Origin: Methylomonas sp. MK1
GTDB lineage: Bacteria; Pseudomonadota; Gammaproteobacteria; Methylococcales; Methylomonadaceae
Assembly (NCBI RefSeq): GCF_000365425.1
Contig: NZ_AQOV01000001.1
Coordinates: 2,108,001 to 2,172,000 of the forward strand
DNA: 64,000 bases
Reading direction: 5' to 3'
Positions 17,340 to 47,818 of this stretch are shown piece after piece; the stretch's first letter is position 1; each line of letters opens with the position of its first letter. The position numbers and the translations under genes are program-made. The notes beneath the pieces are model-generated. The model saw only the letters and a list, made by a program, of their open reading frames with translations. It did no database searches and was not told where the DNA came from.

Positions 17340-17386
17340 GATGGTGGGTCGTGTGCGATTCGAACGCACGACCATCGCATTAAAAG
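17340..17386. repeat. Attachment-site repeat: 47-bp copy of the tRNA-Lys 3' end
   Basis: These 47 bases are identical to 47741-47787, the 3' half of the tRNA-Lys gene from the anticodon loop through CCA. Homology ends at AAAAG, and the 5' half of the tRNA is absent here. Such a partial tRNA copy marks the far end of an island integrated by a tyrosine recombinase. The surroundings (17198-17592) hold no other recognisable gene. Confidence 0.88.
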
Positions 17387-17601
17387 CGCAATTTACTATC
17401 TGTAACTTATTGTTTTAATTACATATTTAACCCTGTCTAGTCTGTCTACGCGACACGACGAATCACAACTGAGCATAACTAAGTCGCGTAAATCTCGCGT
17501 AAGATTTTGGGCTTCCGAACACTGCAACCCATTGTTGTGTTCGTACCAATCACAAAAAATATGATAAATTATATATTTATAATTATTTATTTGTGTTCGG
17601 T

Positions 17602-21157: not shown

Positions 21158-21212
21158 TGATCAAAACCTCTTTCAATTGTTAACACTAGGTTGCAGCCAT
21201 CAGCATTCCTGT

Positions 21213-21590: not shown

Positions 21591-21605
21591 ATTGTTAATC
21601 TTTGG

Positions 21606-23431: not shown

Positions 23432-24841
23432 TCAACCTTGGCCCTCCCAATTAACATATACCTTTTGAATATGCTCTATAGCTGCCTGACGGCGTAAATA
23501 AAATTGATTTACGTAGGTTCCCTGATTTACGAAATAGTGATTTTTATTATCGGTAGTCGGTGCGTCTATCGCAATACAATCGTGTTCCGGTAAGGTTTGC
23601 CGATCCTGGCGTTGGCCGTTAAGGTCGGCAGGATAACCGGCAAACCACCTAAACCATTGGCCACTAATTAGTTTGCCATTCCAGTGTTGCGCGGCGTCTT
23701 GAGCACTTAAAGTCGATCCGGGCAAATCCAGTCCGACGAAATTATAGTTAAGCGGTTTGCCGCACTGGGTCGCGGGATTGATAGCTGGGTCATATAATTG
23801 CATGGTATTTTTTCCGGTTTGCAGCTTGGCAAATTCACCGTACATGGAATGCGCGTAGAAGTCGCCGATTGCATGGGCAGCTAAACCAAAATCGGCTAAA
23901 TTGCCAGTCGCAAGATGAGTTTGCACCCGAGCCCAACCTTCGTCGATATACGCCGAATCGAAATGATCGCGAGGATCATAGGCCGCGGTGTTTACATCAA
24001 TGCCCAAGCTTACTGATTTTACATACAAGCGATTCCACACAGTCATTTTGGAAAGCGCTTCATCGAAAATGCTGTTATGCACACCCGCTGCGAATGTGGG
24101 ATTGAAGTTTTTCCAAAAGCTTCTTTGTTCTAAATAGGTTTGTAAGTTATCGGTGGTGTCAGAGGCTTCCGGGGTGCTGGCCATCCATAAGTGATCATTG
24201 TTAAAGACAAACACCGGAACATATTCAACCTCGGTAGTTGCCGTTTGCGGCTGGTCGCTTGCGTCGGGATTTTGCACTCTGGCGAGTGGATCGAATATTT
24301 CCCAGCCGCCGCTTTCTTTTTGATAGACCACCCAAGCATGGTCGTGTTTTTTGCTTTTTTTGGCACCCGTAATATCGTGCACCATGACGGCGCCCAGCGC
24401 CACGCGAACACAATAAGAACTTATACCGCTCTGTAACAGTAGAGCCGCAAACAAGAATGCCAAATCTTCACAGTCGCCACCGCCCAAGGCTAGCGTTTCT
24501 TCGGGAAAATACCATTGGTCAAAGCGTCTTTTTCCGGGAATATAATTTAGCGATCTGAACCACTCAAAAATAACATCGGCCCGAAAATCGAAATGGCCGT
24601 GGCCATTGGTAAAAAAGCGTAAGCGTAGCGGATCGGCTAGATTTTCTGTGGCTGCTTTTATGGCTTCTCCCACCACTGCGTTATTACTAAATGACAGGAA
24701 TTCGCGGATGTCTATCCTGTAGTTTTTTATTTTAGTGCCGGGAATTGTCCGGCTAGCCGGAATAATAGTATCGTGAAAGATTTGGTCGCCTGCCCAGCGC
24801 CACTTTTGATAGGGTCTGACATTGTTAGTTTGCATGCACAT
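23432..24841 (-). CDS. Transglutaminase-like protein with C-terminal HetC/phospholipase-C-like helical domain
   Basis: 469 residues in two parts. The first has a papain-fold transglutaminase triad: Cys in LGGGDCEDLAFLFA (about residue 139), His in KKHDHAWVVY, Asp in EIFDPLARV, so it may cleave or cross-link peptides. The second part contains YIDEGWARVQTHL and FGLAAHAIGDFYAHSMYGEF, the histidine/aspartate-rich helical pattern of HetC-like, zinc phospholipase C-like or S1/P1-nuclease-like proteins. No signal peptide is evident. It follows the multicopper oxidase by 20 bases and is probably co-expressed. The joining of these two folds is unusual, and the role is unknown. Confidence 0.7.
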   Translation of the reverse strand: MCMQTNNVRPYQKWRWAGDQIFHDTIIPASRTIPGTKIKNYRIDIREFLSFSNNAVVGEAIKAATENLADPLRLRFFTNGHGHFDFRADVIFEWFRSLNYIPGKRRFDQWYFPEETLALGGGDCEDLAFLFAALLLQSGISSYCVRVALGAVMVHDITGAKKSKKHDHAWVVYQKESGGWEIFDPLARVQNPDASDQPQTATTEVEYVPVFVFNNDHLWMASTPEASDTTDNLQTYLEQRSFWKNFNPTFAAGVHNSIFDEALSKMTVWNRLYVKSVSLGIDVNTAAYDPRDHFDSAYIDEGWARVQTHLATGNLADFGLAAHAIGDFYAHSMYGEFAKLQTGKNTMQLYDPAINPATQCGKPLNYNFVGLDLPGSTLSAQDAAQHWNGKLISGQWFRWFAGYPADLNGQRQDRQTLPEHDCIAIDAPTTDNKNHYFVNQGTYVNQFYLRRQAAIEHIQKVYVNWEGQG

Positions 24842-24861
24842 AAGTAGCCCATTTTCTATTA

Positions 24862-27260: not shown

Positions 27261-27644
27261 TCAATGGCCTTGTTTTGCAGGTTTTTGTGAAAAAAAGAAG
27301 ATAAAACAGGCCATTAACACAAATAATGTTGCTGATGCCGAATAACGACTGAATTCCAAACCACCCTTACTAAAAGGCTTATCCAGAAAATCGCCGACTA
27401 CGGCTCCCAGTGGCCGGGTGAGAATAAAGGCTGACTAAAACAGAATTGTGTGTGAAATTGCTGATTTGTGATTGGCCACCGCAATGATTACCAACATCAA
27501 GCCAAAAACAACGGCGCTGCCACTGTAGCCAAGGCCAGCTGAATCTGCCGTCCAATCACCGAGTGTAGTTCAAAAGGTTTGAGAAAACATGATGGTGATC
27601 CAGTAAAACATTTCAGCTTTCGGTGAAATGACTGTATCAACCGC
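27261..27644 (-). pseudogene. COG4705-type membrane protein, truncated and with two in-frame stops
   Basis: In one continuous frame ending at 27261 the translation reads AEMFYWITIMFSQTF, stop, TTLGDWTADSAGLGYSGSAVVF, then ISHTILF, stop, SAFILTRPLGAVVGDFLDKPF, KGGLEFSRYSAS. These are the hallmark blocks of the COG4705 multi-span membrane family of unknown function. Two nonsense codons interrupt it (after QTF and ILF), and IS copy 2 removes its 5' end. There are no frameshifts, so the decay is recent. Confidence 0.75.
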
Positions 27645-27718
27645 TGTCAAACGGCTTAGAAAACTTTCCAAAAGTATCCAGGAAAGATCGTCGAAAAGTT
27701 TGCAGTTACAGCGACGGG

Positions 27719-28468
27719 TTATTGGTTTTCCACCGCCTTTTTTCGTTGCTTGAATCGATAGGAATCATTGCCGGTTTCCAAAATATCGCAGTGGTGGGTA
27801 ATACGATCTAAAAGCGCCGTGGTCATCTTGGCATCGCCGAATACCTGAACCCATTCGCCGAAATTGAGATTGGTGGTGATGATCAAGGATGTTTTTTCAT
27901 AGAGTTGGCTGATCAGGTGGAATAGCAAGGCGCCACCGGATGCGGGAAAAGGTAGATAACCCAATTCATCTAGGATGACAGCATCCATGGTGGTCAGTTG
28001 CTTCGCGAGATTACCGGCTTTGCCCTGCTGTTTTTCTTTATCCAATTGGTTGACGAGATCGACGGCGTTGTAGAAGCGTAACCGTTTGCCTTGGTGAATG
28101 GCCGCCACGCCCAAGGCCGTTGCGAGATGGGTTTTACCGGTGCCAGTACCGCCGACTAAAATGAGGTTGTAGGCTTGATCCATGAAGCCAGCGGTCGCGA
28201 GCTGTTCGATTCTGGCTTTGGGCAGCGGTGTTTCTACCCAGTCAAAATTCATCAAGTCACGATGGATGGGAAAGCGCGCCGCTTTGAGTTGATAATTTAA
28301 ACTGCGCGCCTGGCGATCCGCTTGCTCCGTGGCAATCAAGCGATCCAACCAGACTTCCGGCATAATGGGTTTTTGTTGAAGTCCATATTCGGCTTGCCAT
28401 TCGTTCCAGGCAGCGGCCATACCGAACAGATGCAGGGTTTTCAGTTGCGCAGCGCGATCAATGGACAT
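27719..28468 (-). CDS. istB: IstB ATPase, element B copy 2
   Basis: Same 249-residue sequence as in copy 1, with an intact Walker A (GTGTGKTH) and Walker B. Overlaps the displaced istA tail. Confidence 0.92.
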
Positions 28469-28636
28469 GGCGTGCGCTCCGTAAGGTGTCGTAGCGACTG
28501 CAATCGGCGACGGGTTCGAGCGTGAGTGTGGGTGTCGATGCCGGTGTATTCGTCAACGGTTTTGGCTGAGCAGCTTCCGTTAGGCGTCGCATTTCATTGA
28601 GTACGATGGCCGCGCTAATCACGCCGGTTTGCAAGG

Positions 28637-30031
28637 TCAGATCACAGGCCACATCCAGCGTATCCAGACCGGTTTCCCCCAGGTCTCTCGCCACTTGTGC
28701 CCTGTGGGTATTAACAGCAGATCGACAAAGGCTCTATCGCCCCTATCTTGTTTAAGGATACGATCACGCACCACCTTGATCGATACCGGCAAATCCCAGG
28801 TCACAAACGGTGCGCCATGGCGTAATGCACCGGGCTTTTTCTCCAATACCGGCAAATAGTGCCAAGGATCACAGATTAACTGATCTCGCCCAAAGCGACG
28901 TTCATGGTCGGCAAGCACTTTACCATTCGCCACCATACAGACGCGATGAGCCGTGAGTCTTACCGATACCACGCGATTGGCCCAGGCTGCCGGGACACTA
29001 TACCGATTGCGATCAATACAGATCAGGCACTGGCTGGATACTCGGCGCATCGATTCCACATAACCCTCGAAGGGCGCCTTGATGGGCAGTAGCACTGGCC
29101 GCTCTTCCGCGAAGCATTCCGCTGTTGAGCGGCTAGTCTGTTCGGGATGCGGTCGTGCCGACAGCTCCTGGCAACGTCTTGCCAGCCAAGCATTCAACTC
29201 GGCAAAGTTGGCACAATGCGGCAGTGGCGTGAATAACCATTCGCGAATATTGCCGACCTGATTTTCGACCTGCCCCTTCTCCCAGCCCGCTTCCGGCGTA
29301 CAGGCTATAGGCTCAAACAAATAGTGATTGGCTAAGGTGAGGAAACGGCGATTAAAGCGCCGCTCCTTGCCAACAAAGATCGCATCCACCACGGTTTTCA
29401 GATTGTCGTACACCATGCGTTTGGGTACGCCGCCGAAGAACGCGAATGCCTGATTATGGGCGTCCAATACCATTTCTTGGGTTTCACGCGGATAAGCAAT
29501 GACAAACATTTGCCGACTGTAGGTCAAACGGAAATGCGCCACCTTGACGATTTGTTCCACGCCGCCAAGCACGGCCGTTTCATGACTCCAGTCGAACTGG
29601 CACGTTTCACCAGGTGGGAAGCATAAAGGCACGAAGGCCTGTTTGGCGATGGGTTTGCCAGAGTGATTTAGCTTCCAGTCTTTGACACGACGCTGCACCG
29701 CCGTGTACCCACCGATATAACCTTCAACCTGCAAACACTCGAATAGCCTTTGAGCGGTACGTCTCTGCTTGCGAGGTAAGCAAGCGTCTTTTGCTAGCCA
29801 GTCATCTAGCAGCTTGAGATAGTCGCCTAGCTTCGGGTGAGGTTGCTCCTTTCGGATTGGATAAACCGGCTCTTCGAGTGTATTGAGGTGCTTACGAATA
29901 GTGGGACGGGACAGCTTGAACAATTTCGCCAAGGCGCTGACGGTGACATTCTCAACAAAATGCAATCGCCTGATTTCGGTTATGACTTCCATTTTTATCA
30001 CTCCAGGTTTCTCCGGCAAAAAGCCGGTCAT
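28637..30031 (-). CDS. istA: IstA transposase, element B copy 2 (frameshifted)
   Basis: 464-residue main frame identical to copy 1, with the DDE core intact. The missing C-terminal tail is found in another frame at 28458-28694. The shared break lies at the GGG of 28700-28702. Confidence 0.85.
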   Translation of the reverse strand: MTGFLPEKPGVIKMEVITEIRRLHFVENVTVSALAKLFKLSRPTIRKHLNTLEEPVYPIRKEQPHPKLGDYLKLLDDWLAKDACLPRKQRRTAQRLFECLQVEGYIGGYTAVQRRVKDWKLNHSGKPIAKQAFVPLCFPPGETCQFDWSHETAVLGGVEQIVKVAHFRLTYSRQMFVIAYPRETQEMVLDAHNQAFAFFGGVPKRMVYDNLKTVVDAIFVGKERRFNRRFLTLANHYLFEPIACTPEAGWEKGQVENQVGNIREWLFTPLPHCANFAELNAWLARRCQELSARPHPEQTSRSTAECFAEERPVLLPIKAPFEGYVESMRRVSSQCLICIDRNRYSVPAAWANRVVSVRLTAHRVCMVANGKVLADHERRFGRDQLICDPWHYLPVLEKKPGALRHGAPFVTWDLPVSIKVVRDRILKQDRGDRAFVDLLLIPTGHKWRETWGKPVWIRWMWPVI

Positions 30032-30105
30032 TGAACAACCTGGGGTGGAAACTTTTCAACGCTCTTTTCCCCAGGAACCTGGAAAGCTTTGCACGCCGTT
30101 TTGCA

Positions 30106-30474
30106 GTCAAAGAGGCTATTGAGCAAGGATTATATGGTGAATACCTGGCTGATCCGATTGAAGGCACTGAATACGGTACAACCACTGCGCAGTTGATTAA
30201 ACGTAAAGGTCATCCTTTTATTCGTTCCTTTGCGCATGGTGGTCGTAACTACAGAATCAATTTTCAAAAGGCATTTAATCTTTCTGTACTCACTGCTAAT
30301 CCCGGTTACGGTAAAACCTTTGCTATGCATCCAAAAGTATGGCAATTGTACAAACAGGGTGAATATGTCTGTTTGGTTGTGCCAACGACAAAACTAATGG
30401 AACAATGCGCGAACGACTTGATGAAGCATAATGCTGGAATTGGCTGTTACCAAAGATGGGTACACATTGTTTAG
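30106..30474 (+). pseudogene. Plasmid/phage primase-helicase fragment beginning at the IS end
   Basis: The frame enters from IS copy 2 and reads GHPFIRSFAHGGRNYRINF, typical of primase or DNA-helicase proteins of phages and plasmids, followed by LTANPGYGKTFAMHPKVW with a Walker A-like P-loop, then VCLVVPTTKLMEQCANDL, and stops at 30472. Catalytic parts before and after are absent, so it cannot function. It is debris of a replication module once carried by the island. Confidence 0.6.
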
Positions 30475-30632
30475 CAGGTGAATATGAAATCAATTAGCAG
30501 CTGATTTTATGCGTTAATTCCATTACGTCTAAAAGAATATATGGTGTAGACAAACTAACATATAGGGATCAGTTGACTAACAAACAGTGGCCCTACCCCC
30601 AGTACATTTTTTCACGTACAGCTACAAATCGA

Positions 30633-30938
30633 TCACATTTTGTCTGAATAAATCGCATCTACTAATCGCTTAAACCAGTTAGGTCGGAATATTACAATCA
30701 GTAGTCCTATAGTACTGGTAACAGGAATCGGTACAACGCTAACAGCCATCAACACGATCAGGACTAAGGCCGTTTTTATTCTAGCAACGGTACTACGCAT
30801 GAGATTACCTCTATCATCTGATTTAGTCGGTAAAATGCCAACAATGGTCATAAACGCTACGATACCAACTAGCCACCAAGCGAGCCCCATAAACGCGCCG
30901 CCCAATATGAACCAGAAGAAGTTGCCGATTGTTCTCAT
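30633..30938 (-). CDS. YccF-like small membrane protein, probably chimeric
   Basis: 101 residues. The start IGNFFWFILGGAFMGLAWWL through FMTIVGI is the first YccF (DUF307) motif, but instead of the usual IPWxxA continuation it goes to a different tail, SVVPIPVTSTIGLLIVIF then RPNWFKRLVDAIY. It has about three hydrophobic segments. The tail is nearly repeated at 37444-37563 on the other strand. The gene is divergent from the lipoprotein gene at 31551. Function of YccF proteins is unknown; this may be a fusion formed by rearrangement. Confidence 0.6.
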   Translation of the reverse strand: MRTIGNFFWFILGGAFMGLAWWLVGIVAFMTIVGILPTKSDDRGNLMRSTVARIKTALVLIVLMAVSVVPIPVTSTIGLLIVIFRPNWFKRLVDAIYSDKM

Positions 30939-31550: not shown

Positions 31551-32531
31551 ATGTTTAAATCCGTATCAGCTGGAAAACTAAGTAATGAAACCTTTAAAAA
31601 TGGGGTTTCTTTAGTTTTAGTATTGTTTTTAACGGGGTGCTCCAGTATCAGCCTTGATGCTGCCAAGTCGTTAAGTGTAACTGGCAAAAATGTTGCCACT
31701 CAAACGCAAGAAAACATTTTCGTATCTGACAATGAATATCTTCGCGCACGAGATTCAGAGGCATTAATGCATGGCGTTAGCGGGACTGTGGGTTTGGAGA
31801 GCTACAATAATATCCTTGCCCTTTTCAGCAATATACATCAGGAGCTTTTGACGCGCACAGTTGTATTTGAAAAACTTAGTGATGTTTACGATTCATTTGG
31901 TGATCTCGCTGGATTAGAAGCATCAAAGGAAACTCAGGCCGCTTTAGGAAACCTCGGGGGCGCCATTAATGAATACGCCAAAGCAGTAAACAGTAAGCCA
32001 CCTATTTCATCTGATACTACAGCAGTAATATCAGAGATTGGTGGACTCATAGCTGAAGAAATTCAAAAGGCAAAAATTAAAGAGGCGAGCAAGCAAATTC
32101 GAAGTAATCTCGAGGAATTTTTACAACTTCTAGAAACTCCTCTCGTCCGTGAGCAAATGAATGGATTTAAACAGTTTTTAGCGTCTGATAGGAAAACAGC
32201 AATAATCACATTATGGAATGCAGGACTGTATGATCCAACACCTCTCCTCAACGACATAGGTGCGGATGTGGGTCTAACCGCACAAAAGGATGCATCAAAG
32301 CTGTTAGCATCAAGCCCGGTACTTACAGGTGCAATGGGAGAAATAATCGACAAGCGGCTTACGCATAAAAGCGAGTTAATTGAACGTTCATATGATGTCA
32401 GCCTTTCATCAATAAGAAACTTAATTGCTGAGCATAAAAAACTTGAGGAAGGCCAAGAGTTGGATTTAGCTCGTCTGCGAGAAATTGTGTCCAGATTAAA
32501 AGGGATAGCGGCTCTCCTGGCAAAATCCTAA
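31551..32531 (+). CDS. Lipoprotein of unknown function, first gene of the CHAT cassette
   Basis: 326 residues. The N-terminus is a long lipoprotein signal ending VLFLTGC, with Cys30 the predicted lipidated residue, so the mature protein is tethered to a membrane on the outer side. The remainder is mostly alpha-helical and charged, e.g. EEIQKAKIKEASKQIRSN and ELDLARLREIVSRLKG, without a recognised domain. The start has a strong ribosome site (AGGAG, 7 bases ahead). The next gene follows after 51 bases. It could sense envelope damage or stabilise the partner membrane protein; that is inference. Confidence 0.75.
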   Translation: MFKSVSAGKLSNETFKNGVSLVLVLFLTGCSSISLDAAKSLSVTGKNVATQTQENIFVSDNEYLRARDSEALMHGVSGTVGLESYNNILALFSNIHQELLTRTVVFEKLSDVYDSFGDLAGLEASKETQAALGNLGGAINEYAKAVNSKPPISSDTTAVISEIGGLIAEEIQKAKIKEASKQIRSNLEEFLQLLETPLVREQMNGFKQFLASDRKTAIITLWNAGLYDPTPLLNDIGADVGLTAQKDASKLLASSPVLTGAMGEIIDKRLTHKSELIERSYDVSLSSIRNLIAEHKKLEEGQELDLARLREIVSRLKGIAALLAKS

Positions 32532-32582
32532 TTTGCTGAGTTATACCACCATTCAAGTCGCTAAAATATTTGGAGAAAATCG

Positions 32583-32939
32583 ATGACTACAATTTTTCAT
32601 GATGGCAAGTTAACTAGAGACGAAGCTCTCGGAAGTTTACGTCTTGCCGCGCAGCGTGCAACTGAATCATTACCAGCAGCACTCTCTAAGTGTGAGAAAG
32701 AAGAGGAAAAGCATAAGATTATTGGAGATCGAGATATTATAGTTCTAGCTTATCTCAATTCTTTGAATAAATCACTTTTACATACCGGACCTTTGTTTGA
32801 GGAAACAGCCTCAAACCTTGAAAAGGAAGCGGAGATAGTTGGGGAAATGGCAAAGAGTCTTAAAGACACTACTGAGGCAATCAATTTATTTGCTGGACTC
32901 CTACAACTTGCCGCTGCTTTAGCTGTTGCGTTTGCATGA
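32583..32939 (+). CDS. Small helical protein with hydrophobic C-terminal tail, second gene of the CHAT cassette
   Basis: 118 residues, strongly helical, with heptad-like stretches (ETASNLEKEAEIVGEMAKSL) and a hydrophobic end AINLFAGLLQLAAALAVAFA that would make a C-terminal membrane anchor or an oligomerising pore helix. No family recognised. GGAG ribosome site 7-8 bases before the ATG. Its position between a lipoprotein and a caspase-like protease raises the idea of a membrane effector activated by cleavage, but it is far shorter than bacterial gasdermins and shows none of their features that I can see. Confidence 0.7.
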   Translation: MTTIFHDGKLTRDEALGSLRLAAQRATESLPAALSKCEKEEEKHKIIGDRDIIVLAYLNSLNKSLLHTGPLFEETASNLEKEAEIVGEMAKSLKDTTEAINLFAGLLQLAAALAVAFA

Positions 32940-33478
32940 ACAAAGCCCAGGTTTTACGAATTAAAGCCGAAAGTGCTGTGTCATTTATAAAATACACAGC
33001 CTAACAAATGATTAACCTCCGCATATGTATTGAGAAACTTGAACTACATATGTGAAGGTTTCTCATAGCGTTATGAATGAGCAATTACATATTTAACCAG
33101 TCATTCAAAAAGCCGCCTTGACAGACCGGTATTGATCTGCTCTTTGAATTCGCAACTCTCGATAGTTGTCGTTGAGGATTTTTTACCAAGCTAAAGCACT
33201 ACCCGACCAATAGCCGCCGTTCGACTAATTATTACAGATGTCTCCTTACTGACAGAGGTAAGGCAGATAACTTCAGAAACTGAATTAATAGACAATCAGA
33301 TTAAAGACACATTTAAAGCAATTACCATTCCAGGGCTAAATTAGGCTTGAAGTTACTCTTTTGTTTTTCATTGATAGACTGCTATTGCATTTAAAGGGGT
33401 TCTTTTACTAGAACAAAAAACTATCAAGACATACCCCTTTAAAAACTTGAAGTGCTCAGTTCCAATCTGGAGATATTT
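32940..33478. other. Intergenic gap inside the CHAT cassette, no gene; two inverted repeats
   Basis: Some 540 AT-rich bases. Near 33015-33060 CATATGTA and TACATATG, flanked by AACCT and AGGTT, can form a hairpin. TTAAAGGGGT at 33391-33400 is repeated inverted at 33433-33442, just before the CHAT start. These may terminate the upstream pair and control the CHAT gene separately. Confidence 0.45.
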
Positions 33479-35773
33479 ATGAAAGGAATAATAAATGCGA
33501 TCAAAAATGCCTTAAATGCGATCAATGAGCTTCTTAATATGCCCATTGACCAAGTCAACAGAATACATTTAAGAAATCTGTACTTCAGATATGATGTGTT
33601 ATTGAATGAGATCCAAGTCCTAAACTTAGACAGTGAAATGATAAATGTCAATGATGTTGTAGTTGCATTATCCGTCGCAACACAACATCTCGAGAAATCT
33701 AAAATTGATATTCTGGAAATTTCTGATGCTATTAATAAAGCAGAGCATGCGATTCAAGCAGTAAATTTAAGGATTGAATCTACAATATCTTTTTCTAGAG
33801 GTTCTTCTAATCCCGACATAGAAACTTCAATAACCTATAGCGATAATACCCGAACAATAAAACACCACAAGAAGGATGATTTTAGCATTCCCTTTCTGGA
33901 TCATGATCTAAAAGTTGGTCCCCGGCTTAATTTAAATAAACCTAATCATCCAGTTGAAAAATTGACGAAAACAGAAAATGATATTGATCGCATTTCTACT
34001 TTAAATACAAACAACGAAATTGTTAAAACACTTAACTCTTCAGAGGGTCGTTATTTCAATGCTGGGTTCTTCTCTAGCAAATCTGAAAGAGCCATTATTG
34101 CTAAAGATAAACCACTGGTAAGGACAGTAAATAGCTATCAGCTAGGAGTAAATATAGGTCGGTCATGGGGATTAGGTGCGGCGGAAAAGCAATTTCCCGA
34201 TGATATTTTAAGACAGGAATTTAAAAAGAATCCTGTCTTGCAAACATATCTAGTGGTGCGCTCATTCACAGTTAAACTACCCATACCTTTTCAACCTCTA
34301 ATTCTTGCGGAAAAAGGCGACAGCGAATTGTTGTTTTTCCCTATAGAGTTTCCTGGCATAGGTCGTCATGCCATAGAAATTGACATAATTTATCAGGGGA
34401 ATCTGCTCCAATCTCGCCGCGTAGAAGTTTATCTTGTTGAAACAATAGATGAGACACCACCCGAGTCGGCCTGGCCTGTGCAAGATTCTTATTTGACGTT
34501 TACTCGTACCGATGCGTTGGATGCTGAATCTCTAAAGACGATTGCTAAACGACCTAGACAATTAACAATTGTTGCAGAAAAGAGCTTAGATGAGCACTCG
34601 ATTGGTTTGCGTTTTTATACGATAGAAAACACAAAAGAACAGTCTATAGCCTTTGAACAGTCAACTTTATCGGATACAAATTTGGCTACAATTTTGGGCT
34701 ACGTTCGAGCACAACTTGAAGATGTCATGAATTATTATGCTGGTACGATAGGGGGTAATGATGAGCAACTCCGTAAACCTTTGGCTAAACTGGCTAATGC
34801 AGGTTACAGCTTTTATTGTTCACTATTCCCTGGTTTAAGCAATACTATTAATGAGAGACAGGAAATCCTGCTACTTAAAACAAAAATGGTAGCGGGAATG
34901 ATTATTCAAGTTGCCCCCTTATCTAAACAATTAAGTATTCCCTGGGAGTTATTATATGAACGACCTATGATGAGTTTTCATCAAACAAAAACTAAACTTT
35001 GCTCATCCTTCCGCAGCCACGGAAAAAACTGGCAGGATTGCCCTCACCATGATGATCCGTATGTAGTCTGTCCACATGGCTTTTGGGGATTCAGGTACAT
35101 CATTGAGCAATTGCCCTGTCGATTGGAGCGTAGCCAATTGTCGGGATCGACATTGCCCTTGTATATTAAAAATCACATCCCGTTAAATATATATGCTCTC
35201 AGTAATCCGAATTTAAGTAATTGGATCGATCATAAGGAAAGGCTCATGAATCTTGCCAGCTCACAAGAGCTCACCCTAAGGGATTGTGATCAACTAGATG
35301 AAATCTTTGCCGCTATGAAGGAGAAAAAAGTGAATATCTTTTATGTCTATGCTCATGGTGGTAAAGATGTAACAAATAGACCTTGCTTAAAGCTCGCCAC
35401 CGACAATACTTTAATAACAGTAACTGATTTAAATGCCCAAAAAATTAGCTTCAGTCAAAACTCACCATTATTTTTGTTAAACACTTGCGAGTCCGCTGAC
35501 TATACGCCAGATGACTTTGAGAGCTTTATCCAGTTCTTTTGCAGCCGTGGAGCCGCTGGGGTTATTGGCGTTCAATGTGATGTAAAGGAGATATTGGTAA
35601 ATTCAATGATGACTTGTTTCCTTGCTAGTTTCCTTAAACAAGAAACAGCTGGTGAGGCACTGCTGGCTGCTCGAAAATCTTTGATGTTTGCTGACAGGCC
35701 CGATCCCCGGGGGTTAGCTTATAGTTTGTTTGCCGCCGCTGATTTGAAGCTGTCTACACGTGTTATTAATTAA
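33479..35773 (+). CDS. CHAT-domain caspase-like protease with helical N-terminus
   Basis: 764 residues. The C-terminal ~350 residues are a CHAT (caspase HetF-associated) domain: SIPWELLYERPM, a CPHHDDPYVVCPHGFWGFRY segment whose Cys/His could bind zinc, catalytic His626 in YVYAHGGK, catalytic Cys670 in LLNTCESAD, then SRGAAGVIGVQCDV. The N-terminal ~110 residues are helical (possible adaptor region). A middle part around 270-340 is beta-rich (VRSFTVKLPIPFQPLIL). The ATG at 33479 follows GGAG; an upstream GTG at 33452 is less likely. The membrane-protein gene follows after 26 bases. In bacteria CHAT proteases often act in phage defence or programmed death by cutting a partner; the target here is unknown. 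Confidence 0.88.
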   Translation: MKGIINAIKNALNAINELLNMPIDQVNRIHLRNLYFRYDVLLNEIQVLNLDSEMINVNDVVVALSVATQHLEKSKIDILEISDAINKAEHAIQAVNLRIESTISFSRGSSNPDIETSITYSDNTRTIKHHKKDDFSIPFLDHDLKVGPRLNLNKPNHPVEKLTKTENDIDRISTLNTNNEIVKTLNSSEGRYFNAGFFSSKSERAIIAKDKPLVRTVNSYQLGVNIGRSWGLGAAEKQFPDDILRQEFKKNPVLQTYLVVRSFTVKLPIPFQPLILAEKGDSELLFFPIEFPGIGRHAIEIDIIYQGNLLQSRRVEVYLVETIDETPPESAWPVQDSYLTFTRTDALDAESLKTIAKRPRQLTIVAEKSLDEHSIGLRFYTIENTKEQSIAFEQSTLSDTNLATILGYVRAQLEDVMNYYAGTIGGNDEQLRKPLAKLANAGYSFYCSLFPGLSNTINERQEILLLKTKMVAGMIIQVAPLSKQLSIPWELLYERPMMSFHQTKTKLCSSFRSHGKNWQDCPHHDDPYVVCPHGFWGFRYIIEQLPCRLERSQLSGSTLPLYIKNHIPLNIYALSNPNLSNWIDHKERLMNLASSQELTLRDCDQLDEIFAAMKEKKVNIFYVYAHGGKDVTNRPCLKLATDNTLITVTDLNAQKISFSQNSPLFLLNTCESADYTPDDFESFIQFFCSRGAAGVIGVQCDVKEILVNSMMTCFLASFLKQETAGEALLAARKSLMFADRPDPRGLAYSLFAAADLKLSTRVIN

Positions 35774-35799
35774 AAAGCGAATTTAGAGGATGCCTCATT

Positions 35800-37410
35800 A
35801 TGAACAGTTTATTAAAATATTGGTTTTTTTTTATCTTTTTCAGTTCAGTTTCGCTAGCGAGGGCAGAAGAAGAGTTGATTGTAGAGAAAACTGATTATCC
35901 ATTGATAATTAAAGGCATTTTCGATGATAAAACCGCAATTACCCTTAGTGGCACTGTGCGCATCACCCTTAAAGCCGGGGATGTCAATACTAAAATATAT
36001 GCTGTAGGCGACAATTTGATAGATGGCGATGTTACGATTTTCAGGGATAACATCAGCATTCCTGCAATTTCGCTAACCAAGGACCAACCTCAAGATATAA
36101 AGATAACCATCAATAATATTAACCAGATCGGTAATTTTACAGGCAACTTAAGAATTTGGACTCAAAGCGAAGGCTATGATAAAGCATTACTAATTCCAAT
36201 CAAGCTAAATATTGCCGAAAAGATACAAGTGAAACCCTTAAACGAGAATATATCGTACCAAATAACACGATGTGATTGGTCTTTTGATTGTTTTTTAGCC
36301 AAACTTGTTTTGCCAGAGAGTGAAACCGACAATCAATGGCAAGTAGGACTAAATAATCTTACAAAACAAACAGAGGTTAAGGTTACTGAAGCTAATCTAG
36401 CAATTATGAACGACAGTGCGATTCTGCCACCGCAAGTAACCAATCCTAACCAAATACTAACTACTGATTTAAACTCTATCCCTGTTAAATTTGTATCTGA
36501 TTATATACCGCCAAACAGTTATAAAGGACATTTGCGATTTTCGGTAGCTGGATTAGATGATCCTGTTATTATTCAGACAAACTTGAGTGTTCGCGATGGC
36601 CCGTTTTTGGCTTTGGTTACAATTTTAGTTGGTATCTTGGTTGGACGCATGGCGCGTGATATGGAATCGCCCATTGCCCAAAAACAGACGAGTTTACTAC
36701 CTCGTTGGTATAAGCTGCAGTACGATGGATTCTATAAGATTTTTGGTCAATCCGTTCAACAATCCCTCCGAAAAGATTTGCTTGGTGCCAGAGAATCTAT
36801 TGACTCAAGCTACGACACTATAGAAGTAGCATCCAAGCGCTTGGATGAATTAGCTTTCAAAGTTGACTTTTTTCTGGACCTTCAAACTATTGAAGATGAC
36901 CTACCGGATGATTTACAAAAAGATCATTTCATTGAGTTGATTGATAATTGTCGCAAACAAATGTTGGCAGGTAAAATTGAAGACGCAAATAACAGTAAAA
37001 AAGCAATCTTTTTAGAAATTGTTAACTTAAGAAGCGATGGGACTATGGGCATGAGGGAAGATGTTAAGGCTGCAATTGCTAGGATCAGCTCATTTACCGA
37101 TGAATCAATGAGTAATGCAAAGAACGTATTAGACAAAGCAATAAAGTTTCAGAATAGTTTATTGCGTAGGTCGATGGTCGGCTTATCTGGGGCATACGTG
37201 ACCGCTGAGACGCGGTACTGGATATTTCGGCCGTTAATTTCATTGTTGATTCTTGTTTTGCTTATGTTACTCGGTTTACAGACACTCTATGTTAAATCCG
37301 GTTCAACTTTTGGCTCGGGTGGTTTGTATGATTATCTGGGGCTATTTCTGTGGGGTATCTCAGCCGATGTGGCACAGCGGACGTTGTTTAACCTGCCTCA
37401 GAGCAAATGA
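35800..37410 (+). CDS. Membrane protein with exported beta domain and cytoplasmic coiled region, fourth gene of the CHAT cassette
   Basis: 536 residues. A signal peptide (about 1-22) leads to an exported, beta-rich region (about 23-265). A membrane span follows (GPFLALVTILVGILVGRMAR, about 267-285), then a cytoplasmic helical region (~290-470). A strong span (PLISLLILVLLMLLGLQTLY) and a further hydrophobic segment near YLGLFLWGISADV lie at the C-terminus. This is the shape of a transmembrane sensor or receptor that could pass an envelope signal to the cytoplasmic CHAT protease encoded 26 bases upstream. AGAGGA ribosome site. No family recognised. Confidence 0.75.
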   Translation: MNSLLKYWFFFIFFSSVSLARAEEELIVEKTDYPLIIKGIFDDKTAITLSGTVRITLKAGDVNTKIYAVGDNLIDGDVTIFRDNISIPAISLTKDQPQDIKITINNINQIGNFTGNLRIWTQSEGYDKALLIPIKLNIAEKIQVKPLNENISYQITRCDWSFDCFLAKLVLPESETDNQWQVGLNNLTKQTEVKVTEANLAIMNDSAILPPQVTNPNQILTTDLNSIPVKFVSDYIPPNSYKGHLRFSVAGLDDPVIIQTNLSVRDGPFLALVTILVGILVGRMARDMESPIAQKQTSLLPRWYKLQYDGFYKIFGQSVQQSLRKDLLGARESIDSSYDTIEVASKRLDELAFKVDFFLDLQTIEDDLPDDLQKDHFIELIDNCRKQMLAGKIEDANNSKKAIFLEIVNLRSDGTMGMREDVKAAIARISSFTDESMSNAKNVLDKAIKFQNSLLRRSMVGLSGAYVTAETRYWIFRPLISLLILVLLMLLGLQTLYVKSGSTFGSGGLYDYLGLFLWGISADVAQRTLFNLPQSK

Positions 37411-37443: not shown

Positions 37444-37563
37444 TTAGCAATTAGCGTTGTACCGATTCCTGTGACCAGTACCATAGGACTATTGATTGTG
37501 ATATTCCGACCACACTGGTTTAAACATCTGGTTGATACCATTTATGCTGACAAGCAAATGTAA
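37444..37563 (+). pseudogene. Second copy of the YccF-like gene tail
   Basis: The frame reads AISVVPIPVTSTIGLLIVIF, RPHWFKHLVDTIYADK and stops at 37561. Apart from a few changes this repeats the C-terminus of the gene at 30633-30938, in the opposite orientation, and the DNA is visibly alike. No start codon or N-terminal part precedes it. Confidence 0.7.
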
Positions 37564-37596: not shown

Positions 37597-37905
37597 TTAG
37601 TTTGCAGCCGATCTGCGCTTCTCAATCAGCTCGTTGCGTTGCACAGTCCAATGAACACTTGCAGCTTGTTCCGTGATGCTGCCGTCATTGACCAATCGAC
37701 ATAACCCTAGATACAACGCATAAAGATTGATGATGCCTTCATCATTTGGGTACTGCTTAAATAGCTCGCGATGTTTGCTACTACTCTCCGCATTGCAAAA
37801 TTCACCCGGAATCGGAAGAAAGTCAATTTTGTCGCCATCGCCTAGTGCTGCGTTTGCATCTAATGCAAATAGCAATAATGTCATGAATACAATTTTGTTA
37901 GTCAT
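37597..37905 (-). CDS. Small secreted protein of unknown function
   Basis: 102 residues from the ATG at 37905. The first 19 residues (TNKIVFMTLLLFALDANA) are a signal peptide; the mature part has two cysteines (FCNAE, GLCRL) that could pair, plus charged helices. The frame is open for 21 codons upstream, but the signal peptide fixes the start. Not recognised. It faces the CHAT cassette tail-to-tail. Confidence 0.6.
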   Translation of the reverse strand: MTNKIVFMTLLLFALDANAALGDGDKIDFLPIPGEFCNAESSSKHRELFKQYPNDEGIINLYALYLGLCRLVNDGSITEQAASVHWTVQRNELIEKRRSAAN

Positions 37906-38020
37906 GGACGTTTCGTTGTCATGGTGATAACCAGTAGATATTCCTTGGGCCAAAGCGTGTTTTGTCATCGGACAGTTTTCGTTCTTTCCGTTTGGTCAGG
38001 AAGCAATTAGTCGTCGCGAA

Positions 38021-38328: not shown

Positions 38329-38585
38329 GCTACGGCTTCCTTGGTTTCTGTCAGATCTTCAAACGTGGCAGATACCATTTCGATGTGGGATCTATTGGTT
38401 TTACTATTAGCGCCGGATTTTCTTAGACGGATAACTCGTCGGAATCCGGACAAAATGTTGTAATCAGCATTCGCCGTGAAGAAAATCAGCTGCACACCAA
38501 TTTCTTTGGCTAATAATCGCTGCACATCAATGAGAGCACGGGTCTGAACTTTGGCAAATGGGTTGTCAAGAATAAGTGGCCCGCC
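38325..38585 (-). pseudogene. SMC-like ATPase, C-terminal piece (interrupted by IS copy 3)
   Basis: GGPLILDNPFAKVQTRALID is a Walker B/D-loop segment, followed by AKEIGVQLIFFTANADYNIL and a basic tail, as in SMC-like coiled-coil ATPases of defence and mobile-element systems. It continues the fragment at 41047-41353: removing the IS and one 7-bp target duplicate joins TKRGGGG to PLILDNPF in frame. The stop overlaps the start of the next gene. Confidence 0.65.
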
Positions 38586-38659
38586 TGCAAAACGGCGTGC
38601 AAAACTTTCCAGGTTCCTGGGGAAAAGAGCGTTGAAAAGTTTCCACCCCAGGTTGTTCA

Positions 38660-40054
38660 ATGACCGGCTTTTTGCCGGAGAAACCTGGAGTGATAAAAAT
38701 GGAAGTCATAACCGAAATCAGGCGATTGCATTTTGTTGAGAATGTCACCGTCAGCGCCTTGGCGAAATTGTTCAAGCTGTCCCGTCCCACTATTCGTAAG
38801 CACCTCAATACACTCGAAGAGCCGGTTTATCCAATCCGAAAGGAGCAACCTCACCCGAAGCTAGGCGACTATCTCAAGCTGCTAGATGACTGGCTAGCAA
38901 AAGACGCTTGCTTACCTCGCAAGCAGAGACGTACCGCTCAAAGGCTATTCGAGTGTTTGCAGGTTGAAGGTTATATCGGTGGGTACACGGCGGTGCAGCG
39001 TCGTGTCAAAGACTGGAAGCTAAATCACTCTGGCAAACCCATCGCCAAACAGGCCTTCGTGCCTTTATGCTTCCCACCTGGTGAAACGTGCCAGTTCGAC
39101 TGGAGTCATGAAACGGCCGTGCTTGGCGGCGTGGAACAAATCGTCAAGGTGGCGCATTTCCGTTTGACCTACAGTCGGCAAATGTTTGTCATTGCTTATC
39201 CGCGTGAAACCCAAGAAATGGTATTGGACGCCCATAATCAGGCATTCGCGTTCTTCGGCGGCGTACCCAAACGCATGGTGTACGACAATCTGAAAACCGT
39301 GGTGGATGCGATCTTTGTTGGCAAGGAGCGGCGCTTTAATCGCCGTTTCCTCACCTTAGCCAATCACTATTTGTTTGAGCCTATAGCCTGTACGCCGGAA
39401 GCGGGCTGGGAGAAGGGGCAGGTCGAAAATCAGGTCGGCAATATTCGCGAATGGTTATTCACGCCACTGCCGCATTGTGCCAACTTTGCCGAGTTGAATG
39501 CTTGGCTGGCAAGACGTTGCCAGGAGCTGTCGGCACGACCGCATCCCGAACAGACTAGCCGCTCAACAGCGGAATGCTTCGCGGAAGAGCGGCCAGTGCT
39601 ACTGCCCATCAAGGCGCCCTTCGAGGGTTATGTGGAATCGATGCGCCGAGTATCCAGCCAGTGCCTGATCTGTATTGATCGCAATCGGTATAGTGTCCCG
39701 GCAGCCTGGGCCAATCGCGTGGTATCGGTAAGACTCACGGCTCATCGCGTCTGTATGGTGGCGAATGGTAAAGTGCTTGCCGACCATGAACGTCGCTTTG
39801 GGCGAGATCAGTTAATCTGTGATCCTTGGCACTATTTGCCGGTATTGGAGAAAAAGCCCGGTGCATTACGCCATGGCGCACCGTTTGTGACCTGGGATTT
39901 GCCGGTATCGATCAAGGTGGTGCGTGATCGTATCCTTAAACAAGATAGGGGCGATAGAGCCTTTGTCGATCTGCTGTTAATACCCACAGGGCACAAGTGG
40001 CGAGAGACCTGGGGGAAACCGGTCTGGATACGCTGGATGTGGCCTGTGATCTGA
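38660..40054 (+). CDS. istA: IstA transposase, element B copy 3 (frameshifted)
   Basis: Main frame of 464 residues identical to copies 1 and 2; DDE core intact. The displaced C-terminal tail is at 39997-40233. The shared break lies at the GGG of 39989-39991. Confidence 0.85.
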   Translation: MTGFLPEKPGVIKMEVITEIRRLHFVENVTVSALAKLFKLSRPTIRKHLNTLEEPVYPIRKEQPHPKLGDYLKLLDDWLAKDACLPRKQRRTAQRLFECLQVEGYIGGYTAVQRRVKDWKLNHSGKPIAKQAFVPLCFPPGETCQFDWSHETAVLGGVEQIVKVAHFRLTYSRQMFVIAYPRETQEMVLDAHNQAFAFFGGVPKRMVYDNLKTVVDAIFVGKERRFNRRFLTLANHYLFEPIACTPEAGWEKGQVENQVGNIREWLFTPLPHCANFAELNAWLARRCQELSARPHPEQTSRSTAECFAEERPVLLPIKAPFEGYVESMRRVSSQCLICIDRNRYSVPAAWANRVVSVRLTAHRVCMVANGKVLADHERRFGRDQLICDPWHYLPVLEKKPGALRHGAPFVTWDLPVSIKVVRDRILKQDRGDRAFVDLLLIPTGHKWRETWGKPVWIRWMWPVI

Positions 40055-40222
40055 CCTTGCAAACCGGCGTGATTAGCGCGGCCATCGTACTCAATGAAAT
40101 GCGACGCCTAACGGAAGCTGCTCAGCCAAAACCGTTGACGAATACACCGGCATCGACACCCACACTCACGCTCGAACCCGTCGCCGATTGCAGTCGCTAC
40201 GACACCTTACGGAGCGCACGCC

Positions 40223-40972
40223 ATGTCCATTGATCGCGCTGCGCAACTGAAAACCCTGCATCTGTTCGGTATGGCCGCTGCCTGGAACGAATGGCAAGCC
40301 GAATATGGACTTCAACAAAAACCCATTATGCCGGAAGTCTGGTTGGATCGCTTGATTGCCACGGAGCAAGCGGATCGCCAGGCGCGCAGTTTAAATTATC
40401 AACTCAAAGCGGCGCGCTTTCCCATCCATCGTGACTTGATGAATTTTGACTGGGTAGAAACACCGCTGCCCAAAGCCAGAATCGAACAGCTCGCGACCGC
40501 TGGCTTCATGGATCAAGCCTACAACCTCATTTTAGTCGGCGGTACTGGCACCGGTAAAATCCATCTCGCAACGGCCTTGGGCGTGGCGGCCATTCACCAA
40601 GGCAAACGGTTACGCTTCTACAACGCCGTCGATCTCGTCAACCAATTGGATAAAGAAAAACAGCAGGGCAAAGCCGGTAATCTCGCGAAGCAACTGACCA
40701 CCATGGATGCTGTCATCCTAGATGAATTGGGTTATCTACCTTTTCCCGCATCCGGTGGCGCCTTGCTATTCCACCTGATCAGCCAACTCTATGAAAAAAC
40801 ATCCTTGATCATCACCACCAATCTCAATTTCGGCGAATGGGTTCAGGTATTCGGCGATGCCAAGATGACCACGGCGCTTTTAGATCGTATTACCCACCAC
40901 TGCGATATTTTGGAAACCGGCAATGATTCCTATCGATTCAAGCAACGAAAAAAGGCGGTGGAAAACCAATAA
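40223..40972 (+). CDS. istB: IstB ATPase, element B copy 3, with altered Walker A
   Basis: Same as copies 1 and 2 except at codon 113 (bases 40559-40561), where ATC replaces ACC, so Walker A reads GGTGTGKIH instead of GGTGTGKTH. The Thr/Ser after the P-loop Lys binds Mg with ATP; isoleucine there should abolish ATP hydrolysis. This copy can probably move only with help from another copy. Confidence 0.92.
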
Positions 40973-41046
40973 CCCGTCGCTGTAACTGCAAACTTTTCGA
41001 CGATCTTTCCTGGATACTTTTGGAAAGTTTTCTAAGCCGTTTGACA

Positions 41047-41353
41047 GCCCGCCTCCACCACGTTTGGTTCGGGCTTGAGTATCGGCCCGCAATTGGCTAA
41101 TCAGCAAATAGAGAAACATAGCAATCACTGTACCCTGTCCCTTCGATCCTTTAAGCTCACCAGCAAGCTGATACTGATATACCTCGTTCTGCTCCATTTT
41201 TAACACTTGCAATCCCAGTTCCTGACGCCCGCAAACGGCAGTGAGGCATTGCGCAACTAAGTCAGCACCCTTGGCGGGAATCACGCTGCTTTTTATTAAC
41301 CCATTTAGATAATGCCGGATTGCGTCTTTACGATTGTCGACAGTCGATGGCAA
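41047..41353 (-). pseudogene. SMC-like ATPase, signature-motif piece (interrupted by IS copy 3)
   Basis: The fragment reads YQYQLAGELKGSKGQGTVIA, MFLYLLISQLRADTQARTK and then the glycine-rich link into the Walker B piece at 38585. The KGSKGQGT segment stands where SMC proteins have their LSGGE-type signature. An in-frame TGA just upstream of 41353 closes the frame, so the long coiled coil and N-terminal ATPase half are missing: the gene was already truncated or was cut by another rearrangement. Exact defence family not assignable. Confidence 0.6.
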
Positions 41354-41907: not shown

Positions 41908-42059
41908 AAAACCAAAGTTTTGCTCAAACTGTCCAAAAGACGGTGTTGATTGCCTTATCAGCGCCATCTTTTAGCTTTTTTACCGGCAAAAACCACTGCC
42001 AAAAAAGCCAATTCTAAAGCTGTAAATGACTTGCACCCTAACGAAACGCGGTGCAAATC

Positions 42060-42449
42060 ATGTCCGAAACACACATTTCAACACATTCCATTCTTCCCCG
42101 ATTTATTCGCATCCGCGATGCGCCTTTCTATCTCGGGATGGACAAAAACCGTTTTAACACCGAAGTCAGACCTTCGCTTACCGAAATCAAAATCGGCCAG
42201 CAAGGTATTGCCTTCGATCGTATTGAACTCGACGCCTGGGCCGACGAATACGTTCGTCGCTTCGGTAAATCAAGTATGAAAAAACAAGATAAACAAGAGA
42301 AATCATCATGGCAAAGAAAATCCCAGGTCTCGTCAAAAGAGGCGAATTTTGGCACATTGATAAAGTCATCAAAGGCAAAGGACGTGTTTGCCTCAGTACT
42401 GGAACAGACAATCTCCAGGAAGCCGAAAACTTCCTCGCGAAAATCATAG
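42060..42449 (+). CDS. AlpA/excisionase-like DNA-binding protein
   Basis: About 129 residues. The part FIRIRDAPFYLGMDKNRFN, then IKIGQQGIAFDRIELDAWAD, has the shape of MerR-like AlpA/Xis proteins that direct excision or control integrase expression. The C-terminus is basic and Ser/Lys-rich and overlaps the integrase start by about 140 bases in another frame, an unusually long overlap; the working protein may effectively end near 42290. Adjacent to the integrase, so likely its recombination directionality factor. Confidence 0.6.
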   Translation: MSETHISTHSILPRFIRIRDAPFYLGMDKNRFNTEVRPSLTEIKIGQQGIAFDRIELDAWADEYVRRFGKSSMKKQDKQEKSSWQRKSQVSSKEANFGTLIKSSKAKDVFASVLEQTISRKPKTSSRKS

Positions 42450-43432
42450 ATGAGATTCGGCAAGTGACGGTCTACGGTGCCAGGCCTAAACGCACGTTTC
42501 GAGAAGCGGCGACGAAATATTTGCAGGAAACCGAAAAACGCAGTTTAGCTAGAGATGCGTACTGCCTCAAAAACCTTGATCCCTTCATTGGCGATATGGA
42601 CATTATGCATGTGCATATGGGCACTTTGATGCCCTATATTGAAGCAAGGAAAGCGGCGGGCATCAAAAGTAAAACCATCGGCAGAGACCTCGCTGTTTTA
42701 CGTCGGATTCTCACTTTGGCTGCTCGGTCGTGGCGAGACGAACAAAACAAGCCTTGGATCGATATACCACCTTTGTTGGCAATGCCAAATTGGGAGGATG
42801 GTGCCGAACCTTATCCCTTGAACTGGCAAGAGCAAGCCCGGTTCTTTGACTTGCTGCCAGAACATCTTCGCGTGATGGCACTGTTCAAAGTCAATACCGG
42901 CTTGCGTGAACAAGGTGTTTGTTGGTTGCGCCGGGACTGGGAAGTCAAAGTGTCGGAGTTGAACACGTCGATTTTCATCACCCCCGGTAAACGCATCGAA
43001 TATGAAGATGGCATTTGGCGAGGAGAGAAAAACAAGGAAGACCAAATCGTGGTGCTCAACCAAGTGGCCAGAGGCATTATCGAGCAACAACGCGGCTTGC
43101 ATCCGATTTACGTGTTTCCTTATGAAGGGCGGAGGATCGGTGCCATCCATACGACGGCATGGAAAAATGCATGGCGCAAAGCAGGTCTGCCGGTCGATGG
43201 TTCGCATAATAAAGGGCCACATAATCTCAAGCATACCTTTGGGCGTCGCTTACGTTCTGCTGGCGTGCCTTTGGAAACACGCAAAGTGTTGCTTCACCAC
43301 AAGTCAGGTGACATTACCACGCATTATTCCGGTGCTGAGCTTCGAGAGCTGATTGCTGCGGTCGAAAGCATCTGCGAAGCCGATGCCGGTATTCCGATCA
43401 CGTTACTGAGACGAGGAACAAAAGCCAAATAA
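42308..43432 (+). CDS. Tyrosine recombinase (island integrase)
   Basis: 374 residues. The N-terminal arm (KKIPGLVKRGEFWHIDKVIK) and a SAM-like core-binding domain precede the catalytic domain. The catalytic set is visible: Arg in FKVNTGLREQGVCWLR, His-x-x-Arg in LKHTFGRRLR, His in VLLHHKSGDITTHYSG and the Tyr nucleophile in THYSG. It should integrate the island at the tRNA-Lys 3' end, 4.3 kb to the right. It is not immediately next to the att site; secreted-protein genes lie between. Confidence 0.9.
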   Translation: MAKKIPGLVKRGEFWHIDKVIKGKGRVCLSTGTDNLQEAENFLAKIIDEIRQVTVYGARPKRTFREAATKYLQETEKRSLARDAYCLKNLDPFIGDMDIMHVHMGTLMPYIEARKAAGIKSKTIGRDLAVLRRILTLAARSWRDEQNKPWIDIPPLLAMPNWEDGAEPYPLNWQEQARFFDLLPEHLRVMALFKVNTGLREQGVCWLRRDWEVKVSELNTSIFITPGKRIEYEDGIWRGEKNKEDQIVVLNQVARGIIEQQRGLHPIYVFPYEGRRIGAIHTTAWKNAWRKAGLPVDGSHNKGPHNLKHTFGRRLRSAGVPLETRKVLLHHKSGDITTHYSGAELRELIAAVESICEADAGIPITLLRRGTKAK

Positions 43433-47654: not shown

Positions 47655-47688
47655 TCACGCAAAAATCACGCAAGCCGAATTTCAGGCA

Positions 47689-47723: not shown

Positions 47724-47740
47724 GATTTGCTTATCGAATT

Positions 47741-47787
47741 GATGGTGGGTCGTGTGCGATTCGAACGCACGACCATCGCATTAAAAG
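47741..47787. repeat. Attachment-site repeat at the tRNA-Lys 3' end
   Basis: Identical to 17340-17386. It covers the anticodon loop to CCA plus two bases and marks the integrase-proximal end of the island. Confidence 0.88.
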
Positions 47788-47818
47788 TGCGGTGCTCTAC
47801 CGGCTGAGCTAACGACCC
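47743..47818 (-). tRNA. tRNA-Lys (TTT)
   Basis: A 76-base cloverleaf with encoded CCA. The acceptor GGGTCGT pairs with ACGACCC; D-arm GCTCAGCCGGTAGAGC; anticodon loop CTTTTAA gives TTT (Lys); T-arm GTGCGTTCGAATCGCAC. It is intact although an island is integrated at its 3' end, because the island carried the same 47 bases. Confidence 0.95.

Follow-up and report, generated by a model that had tools for sequence, protein, structure and literature searches.

A four-gene block in the genome of Methylomonas sp. MK1

We analysed a 64,000-nucleotide stretch of the Methylomonas sp. MK1 genome (contig NZ_AQOV01000001.1, positions 2,108,001 to 2,172,000 of the forward strand; this whole stretch is hereafter the window, and its own numbering is used throughout), with attention to a block of four open reading frames (ORFs) that the ORF list of the window places at 31551-37410, all on the + strand. 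A first reading made from the letters alone, referred to below as the sequence-only reading, had regarded these genes as one envelope-sensing protease system. The four same-strand ORFs were found where it had placed them:

31551..32531, + strand: module A lipoprotein gene, 326 amino acids (aa), lipobox Cys30
32583..32939, + strand: module A gene for a small helical protein, 118 aa, hydrophobic C-terminal tail
33479..35773, + strand: module B CHAT protease gene, 764 aa; the ORF opens at GTG 33452
35800..37410, + strand: module B membrane-protein gene, 536 aa

Purine-rich ribosome sites lie 5' of the starts of genes 1 to 4 (AGGAG, TTGGAG, TGGAG and AGAGG, respectively), as had been claimed. The CHAT ORF is a 776-aa open frame without a stop, and its ribosome site suits the ATG at 33479, which gives 764 aa, and does not suit the GTG at 33452; CHAT residue numbers below, including those of the His626/Cys670 dyad, refer to the 764-aa form. 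Genes 1-2 and genes 3-4 are separated by a 539-base gap (32940-33478) that is absent from the sequence-only reading. A promoter and terminator scan gave sites no commoner than in shuffled sequence. In Pfam only the CHAT protein scored above a cut-off, the other three proteins giving nothing over it, and PADLOC-DB 2.0.0 returned no family for any of the four proteins at expectation values (E) up to 1, in keeping with the earlier impression that the combination is not a described defence system. The four genes most likely represent two separate two-gene modules lying side by side, designated A (genes 1 and 2) and B (genes 3 and 4).

A CHAT protein with a constant core and an exchanged N-terminus

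The protein encoded by gene 3 scored 26.7 bits against the Pfam CHAT model (PF12770), for which the cut-off is 24. A further 21 homologues align with it over 72-79% of the query, leaving the N-terminus uncovered. Its parts are as follows:

33479..34042, + strand: CHAT residues 1-188, helical N-terminus and disordered linker, unrelated sequence in relatives
34046..35770, + strand: CHAT residues 190-764, conserved core of beta domain and CHAT domain (alignment and model)
35354..35356, + strand: codon of His626 of the dyad, invariant in the 22-row alignment
35486..35488, + strand: codon of Cys670 of the dyad, invariant in the 22-row alignment

The dyad, earlier described as intact, was also kept in all 11 loci tested in which the CHAT gene adjoins a membrane-protein gene (paired loci, described below), with L011 left out, a short stretch in which only the C-terminal part of CHAT was read. 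The structure model (mean predicted local distance difference test score, pLDDT, 72.3; predicted template modelling score, pTM, 0.68) begins with a helical N-terminus (1-108) and a disordered linker (105-188), after which come a beta domain and the CHAT domain; its best fold matches were Csx29, SAVED-CHAT and separase, and it has a caspase-clan fold. Searched against PDB sequences, the CHAT alignment gave no match at E up to 1. By score, dyad and modelled fold the protein is a member of the CHAT-domain protease family, with predicted protease activity.

The N-terminus of the CHAT protein is exchanged between loci. Its first 110 residues matched none of 69 proteins compared except their own copy, its N-terminal 200 residues had no match in 10 other paired loci, and neither the small protein nor the lipoprotein matched it. 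The N-termini of L005, L006 and L078-L081 are alike and those of L008 and L009 weakly alike (L009 carrying CpXC and TPR), whereas for those of L004, L007 and the window the 11 loci compared gave no match. CHAT homologues without locus context carry TCAD7 or a caspase domain as N-terminal domains.

A membrane protein with a conserved C-terminal part

The 536-aa protein encoded by gene 4 has hydrophobic spans at about residues 264-285 and 475-493, and its model predicts a signal peptide, two exported beta domains, a span at 269-287, cytoplasmic helices, a second span at 469-500 and a helix at 506-530, which agrees with the exported domain, membrane spans and cytoplasmic helical part that had been proposed for it. 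Leaving the signal peptide aside, the cytoplasmic arm is the least conserved part and the C-terminal 76 residues are the most conserved; the exported part shows moderate conservation (0.49-0.73 per 20 residues). Within the arm lies one further feature:

37036..37050, + strand: loop D413-G417 (DGTMG), a candidate cleavage loop, chosen post hoc

A short loop in which Gly or Ser comes after Met is present in 10 of 12 CHAT-adjacent rows, in none of the four solo rows and in two of four rows without locus context. Since this loop was found by inspection, the comparison is not a test. No gasdermin match was obtained for the protein in Pfam at E up to 1, and no gasdermin chain stood among the fold rows listed, for which the underlying model is weak. 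A single-sequence query found the membrane protein in no viral contig; among plasmids it matched one. In a Calothrix chromosome, a 501-aa protein (L087, 8160-9665) has a C-terminal membrane motif resembling TFGxxGxxDYxxLxxWGxxAE, suggesting from sequence that the membrane protein belongs to a wider superfamily.

The CHAT and membrane-protein genes recur as neighbours in distant bacteria

Co-occurrence of all four families across genomes, the check proposed with the sequence-only reading, was borne out for the CHAT and membrane-protein genes, which recur as a pair, and failed for the lipoprotein and small-protein genes, which were found in none of the CHAT loci tested. A scan of GTDB contigs with the CHAT protein gave 33 loci, seven of which (L004 to L009 and L011) have the membrane-protein gene, always directly downstream; these seven are all those with CHAT identity of 42% or more in the best segment, that is, the closest clade. 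In the reverse test, 292 cyanobacterial genomes were searched with the membrane-protein profile, and 10 had a match. Without the centre genome and a weak, stop-containing match, eight strong matches remained, four of which have CHAT directly upstream (L078-L081). The order of protease and then membrane gene was the same in 12 of 12 pairs. Besides the window, the pair is held by Chloroflexota and Cyanobacteriota, and it is also present as a plasmid copy. The CHAT protein was found in five plasmid records (best, Calothrix). The CHAT and membrane-protein genes are thus a recurrent neighbour pair in distant bacteria. Over 11 loci, identities of the CHAT core and of the membrane protein run in parallel (r 0.957; 0 of 5000 permutations).

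In the same reverse test, membrane-protein copies standing without CHAT form one side of one branch in the tree (support 78/81), and two of them, in the cyanobacterial stretches L082 and L083, lie two genes downstream of a ParA-like ORF, with no CHAT in the stretch. Among Chloroflexota the profile matched 7 of 301 genomes, strongly only the centre genome; for the weak matches eight stretches were examined, the two weakest places being left out, and four of the eight hold a divergent CHAT, all four confirmed by Pfam. In one of these Chloroflexota stretches (L077, 5137-7674) a CHAT-EAD2-SAVED protein is encoded on the opposite strand, one gene from a divergent membrane-protein homologue.

Another caspase-clan protein lies near the pair in 8 of 12 paired loci. 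In L004 and L007 this is a larger CHAT protein upstream of the pair, which has TPR repeats in the former and, in the latter (scanned as its twin L003), a TPR match below threshold; in L005, L006, L078, L079, L080 and L081 it is a caspase-domain protein adjoining the pair or one gene off. Several of these caspase proteins are fused to nSTAND1 or iSTAND, to WD40 or TPR repeats, or to FGE. The window, L008, L009 and the short L011 have no second caspase-clan protein in the stretch examined.

The lipoprotein and the 118-aa protein belong together elsewhere

The lipoprotein assignment of gene 1 stood up, Cys30 after a hydrophobic leader being invariant in 18 alignment rows, as did the hydrophobic tail of the 118-aa protein (segment 99-117). 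Apart from the lipoprotein itself, 40 homologues fell within an E of 0.01 among the candidates scored, most of them without locus context; of those named, two are from Pseudomonas and one from Thermodesulfobacteriota. A scan of viral contigs with the lipoprotein gave a single locus, L039, in which 13 bases separate the gene of a lipoprotein homologue (46%) from a downstream gene whose 117-aa product is homologous to the small protein (49% over 101 residues). L039 is a prophage contig with a phage tail protein, an excisionase and an integrase (PHROGs); the pair, together with a third exported protein, is placed between the excisionase and the integrase, and its ORF list holds no CHAT-like gene. 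That third gene (L039, 9953-10492), which follows the pair, encodes a 179-aa exported protein without a PHROG family.

Both module A genes were absent from all 33 CHAT loci, and among 81 stretches compared (some overlapping) only L039 matched gene 1 or gene 2, both together. L039 joins genes 1 and 2 and sets them apart from genes 3 and 4, on the thin basis of one instance. The small protein, which had been put forward as the cleaved effector of the protease, is a poor candidate for that role, because it was found in none of the CHAT loci tested and is paired with the lipoprotein in a prophage contig.

Other searches with module A gave little. The lipoprotein had no match in plasmid or phage records, the small protein none in plasmid records and its L039 homologue none in phage records. 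Among 369 genomes of the class, and again among 398 of the phylum, the only one with the lipoprotein was its own; it was found in none of 25 and none of 398 genomes of a genus and a family, respectively, of the class picked as perhaps Pseudomonas kin. A PDB sequence search with the lipoprotein alignment gave weak rows only (best E 0.1), and PHROG has no family for either protein. Module A resembles the lysogenic-conversion (moron) genes of prophages in that its pair occupies a variable slot between excisionase and integrase, in the one contig L039, and differs in that its proteins are without a PHROG family. It is likely an independent prophage-type envelope module, perhaps with a role in excluding other phages.

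The block lies in an island probably integrated at tRNA-Lys

The integrase island that the sequence-only reading had recognised around the block was confirmed, with a tyrosine integrase lying between the copies of a direct repeat of the 3' end of tRNA-Lys (17340-17386 and 47741-47787, 47 bases identical; 50 bases at 98%; start-to-start spacing 30,401 bases). Insertion sequences (IS) flank the block on both sides:

17340..17389, no strand: copy of the tRNA-Lys 3' end, likely island attachment site
27645..30105, - strand: IS21-type element (istA, istB), left of the block
38586..41046, + strand: IS21-type element (istA, istB) on the right flank; 7-base target duplication GCCCGCC
42308..43432, + strand: tyrosine integrase of the island (Pfam and PHROG)
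47741..47790, no strand: tRNA-Lys 3' end (the gene runs 47743-47818 on the - strand), probable second attachment site

Paired direct repeats of a tRNA end are the typical trace of tyrosine-integrase islands. From the repeat and the integrase between its copies, the setting is an integrated island of 30.4 kb, which by the repeat positions (17340 and 47741) extends well past the four genes and takes in an oxidase-like cluster at 18-27 kb. This cluster (18492-26874) encodes a 524-aa protein and a flavoprotein-like neighbour, putatively LodA/LodB-like, and a multicopper oxidase (Pfam).

The two flanking IS21-type elements are nearly identical and inverted relative to each other, and a third nearly identical copy lies at 14657-17118; compared as repeats, the other two span 27643-30106 and 38585-41048. 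A composite transposon carrying all four genes as a unit was considered and is not supported, because the right element has its own GCCCGCC duplication and the left copy is without a matching one. The right copy splits two minus-strand ORF pieces resembling one ATPase-type gene (no Pfam family), and an ORF piece beside the left element (30106-30480) weakly matches the res subunit of a type III restriction enzyme or a DEAD helicase (E 5e-5). An inverted 103-base repeat (84%) stands at both edges of the block (30640-30742 and 37451-37553), its left copy falling inside a YccF-type ORF (30633-30938).

DNA of the integrase region had matches in 16 of 51 genomes, its own genome counted, many of them weak. 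The best match, the same-genus genome G011, has the same tRNA-Lys and is 97% identical to window positions 47643-60545, up to the end of the stretch compared. On the other side of tRNA-Lys, the stretches compared have only the integrase region in common (41986-43366, 76%), and the cargo therefore differs. In another genome of the genus (G026; L100, 650-11995), a type III restriction-modification pair, a DrmD-like helicase and an LmuB-like protein lie beside the matching region, and the stretch also holds a homologue (67% over 98 residues) of the 123-aa protein at 37597-37968 of the window. This fits the use of the island slot for defence genes, and is no proof that the window genes are defence genes. 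Elsewhere in the window, a c-di-GMP-I riboswitch (50763-50847, 54.9 bits) overlaps the first codons of the ORF at 50728 and precedes two secreted proteins with VPxPGAVWLFGSA-type C-terminal tails, presumably PEP-CTERM-like.

A proposed protease switch at the membrane and its alternatives

We favour a reading with two modules, in which the right-hand pair, recurring in distant bacteria, is likely a protease switch whose activated CHAT protein cuts the membrane protein; our confidence in this reading is evenly balanced. The CHAT N-terminus would receive an alarm, in many lineages from the caspase-STAND protein or the larger CHAT protein; the CHAT domain, tethered at the membrane via its partner, would cut the weakly conserved helical cytoplasmic arm of that partner; and the cut would free or open the strongly conserved C-terminal membrane part, by which the infected cell would be halted or killed. 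We infer the cleavage, its place and its outcome, and module B perhaps acts in phage defence. As what varies is the input end of the protease and what stays constant is the membrane partner, the economical order runs from alarm to CHAT protease to membrane protein. The sequence-only reading had the signal pass from the membrane protein to the protease, a direction that appears doubtful, the exchangeable protease N-terminus and the constant membrane protein fitting the opposite one better. For a cut in a small flexible loop there is a precedent in Csx29, which cleaves Csx30 between residues 427 and 429 (excerpt of PMC10028731).

Several points weigh against this protease switch. As many as 26 of the 33 CHAT loci are without a recognisable membrane partner, their CHAT proteins being at most 29% identical, and the other four of the eight cyanobacterial matches (L082-L085) have no CHAT in the stretch examined. 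The numbers of CHAT and caspase neighbours are raw counts, and the parallel divergence may be explained as well by shared descent of a fixed pair as by contact. None of 150 relatives carries the CHAT gene, the window has no second caspase-clan gene, and by Pfam its own genome has only this CHAT. Confidence in the membrane-protein model is low (mean pLDDT 72.5, pTM 0.41; about 45-68 in the C-terminal membrane helices). The candidate loop D413-G417 was chosen after inspection, and we place little weight on it because Craspase orthologues cut non-conserved sites (excerpt of PMC11106740). The partners could equally be an anchor and an enzyme without cleavage.

A possible, if doubtful, alternative makes the membrane protein the sensor: envelope damage or phage entry would be felt by its exported beta domains, and it would switch on the CHAT protein, which would then cut other proteins. 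The exchangeable part, however, is the N-terminus of the protease, the exported part is not hypervariable as a receptor would be, and the four solo membrane proteins have no such protease in the stretch examined.

A bolder form of the protease switch is offered tentatively and is unlikely in full. The membrane protein would be the founder of a new class of membrane executioners set off by a protease, sharing the logic of gasdermins and not their fold, in which the CHAT protein, as the second step of a caspase/STAND cascade, would cut the cytoplasmic arm at the conserved loop (D413-G417 in the window) and release a C-terminal hairpin that would breach the inner membrane; the pair would be a portable cartridge whose protease N-terminus is swapped to plug into different alarm systems.

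It is unlikely that the pair has a housekeeping or developmental role, such as in envelope stress or cell division, rather than one in immunity. This would be consistent with solo membrane proteins on contigs of 6.4 and 6.8 Mb, which are hence chromosomal, and with a paper on HetF, a divisome component of a filamentous cyanobacterium, part of which mentions a CHAT domain (PMC8406250); the scattered distribution with none in 150 relatives, the plasmid copy, the mobile-island setting and the conflict-type neighbours caspase, nSTAND1 and iSTAND argue otherwise. Rather improbable is a mere anchor or scaffold that places CHAT at the inner membrane, the true substrate being a host or phage protein; the pair is kept together and diverges in parallel, and no common cut site is proven, as an anchor would allow, whereas the solo copies in L082-L085 suggest a role of their own for the membrane protein. 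A single envelope-sensing protease system made up of all four genes, its cleaved effector being the small protein or the lipoprotein, is very improbable, for although the four lie adjacent on one strand within one IS pair, genes 1 and 2 occur together in L039 and were found in none of the 33 CHAT loci.

Relation to known systems and significance

We rate module B as a new variant of the bacterial caspase/CHAT conflict systems. The CHAT fold of the window protein is similar to that of Csx29 in the Csx29/Csx30 Craspase (type III-E CRISPR, TPR-CHAT), but it is not Csx29, as the NCBIfam model gave 15.4 bits against a cut-off of 300; its N-terminal part is different and its partner is a membrane protein with exported domains. 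SAVED-CHAT effectors are described as acting in a CRISPR-driven proteolytic cascade, and in bacterial gasdermin operons, an analogy to module B, a protease stands beside a membrane-active protein switched on by cutting. The window protein matches the fold of the SAVED-CHAT effector (PDB 8tl0) and is without a SAVED domain (Pfam). Of the domains that mark EAD/TCAD conflict systems, Pfam listed none for the window protein at E up to 1, whereas relatives carry TCAD7 and a sub-threshold EAD7, and divergent CHATs carry EAD2.

Module B also resembles the two-gene EACC1-caspase system (system 4 of Kaur et al. 2020, excerpt of PMC7159879), which likewise combines a membrane protein and a caspase-superfamily protease with exchangeable domains. 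There a small single-span EACC1 gene is 5' and the caspase gene 3', whereas in module B the protease gene is 5', the partner is longer (536 aa) and has two to three spans as well as exported domains, and Pfam finds CHAT rather than Peptidase_C14 on the protease. In the portions of the open literature searched, including those of PMC7159879, PMC8195603, PMC10907252, PMC10028731 and PMC11106740, neither gene pair was found described.

The block illustrates that four tidy adjacent genes of an island can be two modules. To our knowledge, the substrates of most bacterial CHAT proteases are not known; here the gene immediately downstream encodes a partner that diverges together with the protease across distant phyla, and this partner offers a concrete candidate, open to testing, for a substrate or an anchor. 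The caspase-STAND genes and larger CHAT genes nearby point to two-step protease cascades that end at the membrane.

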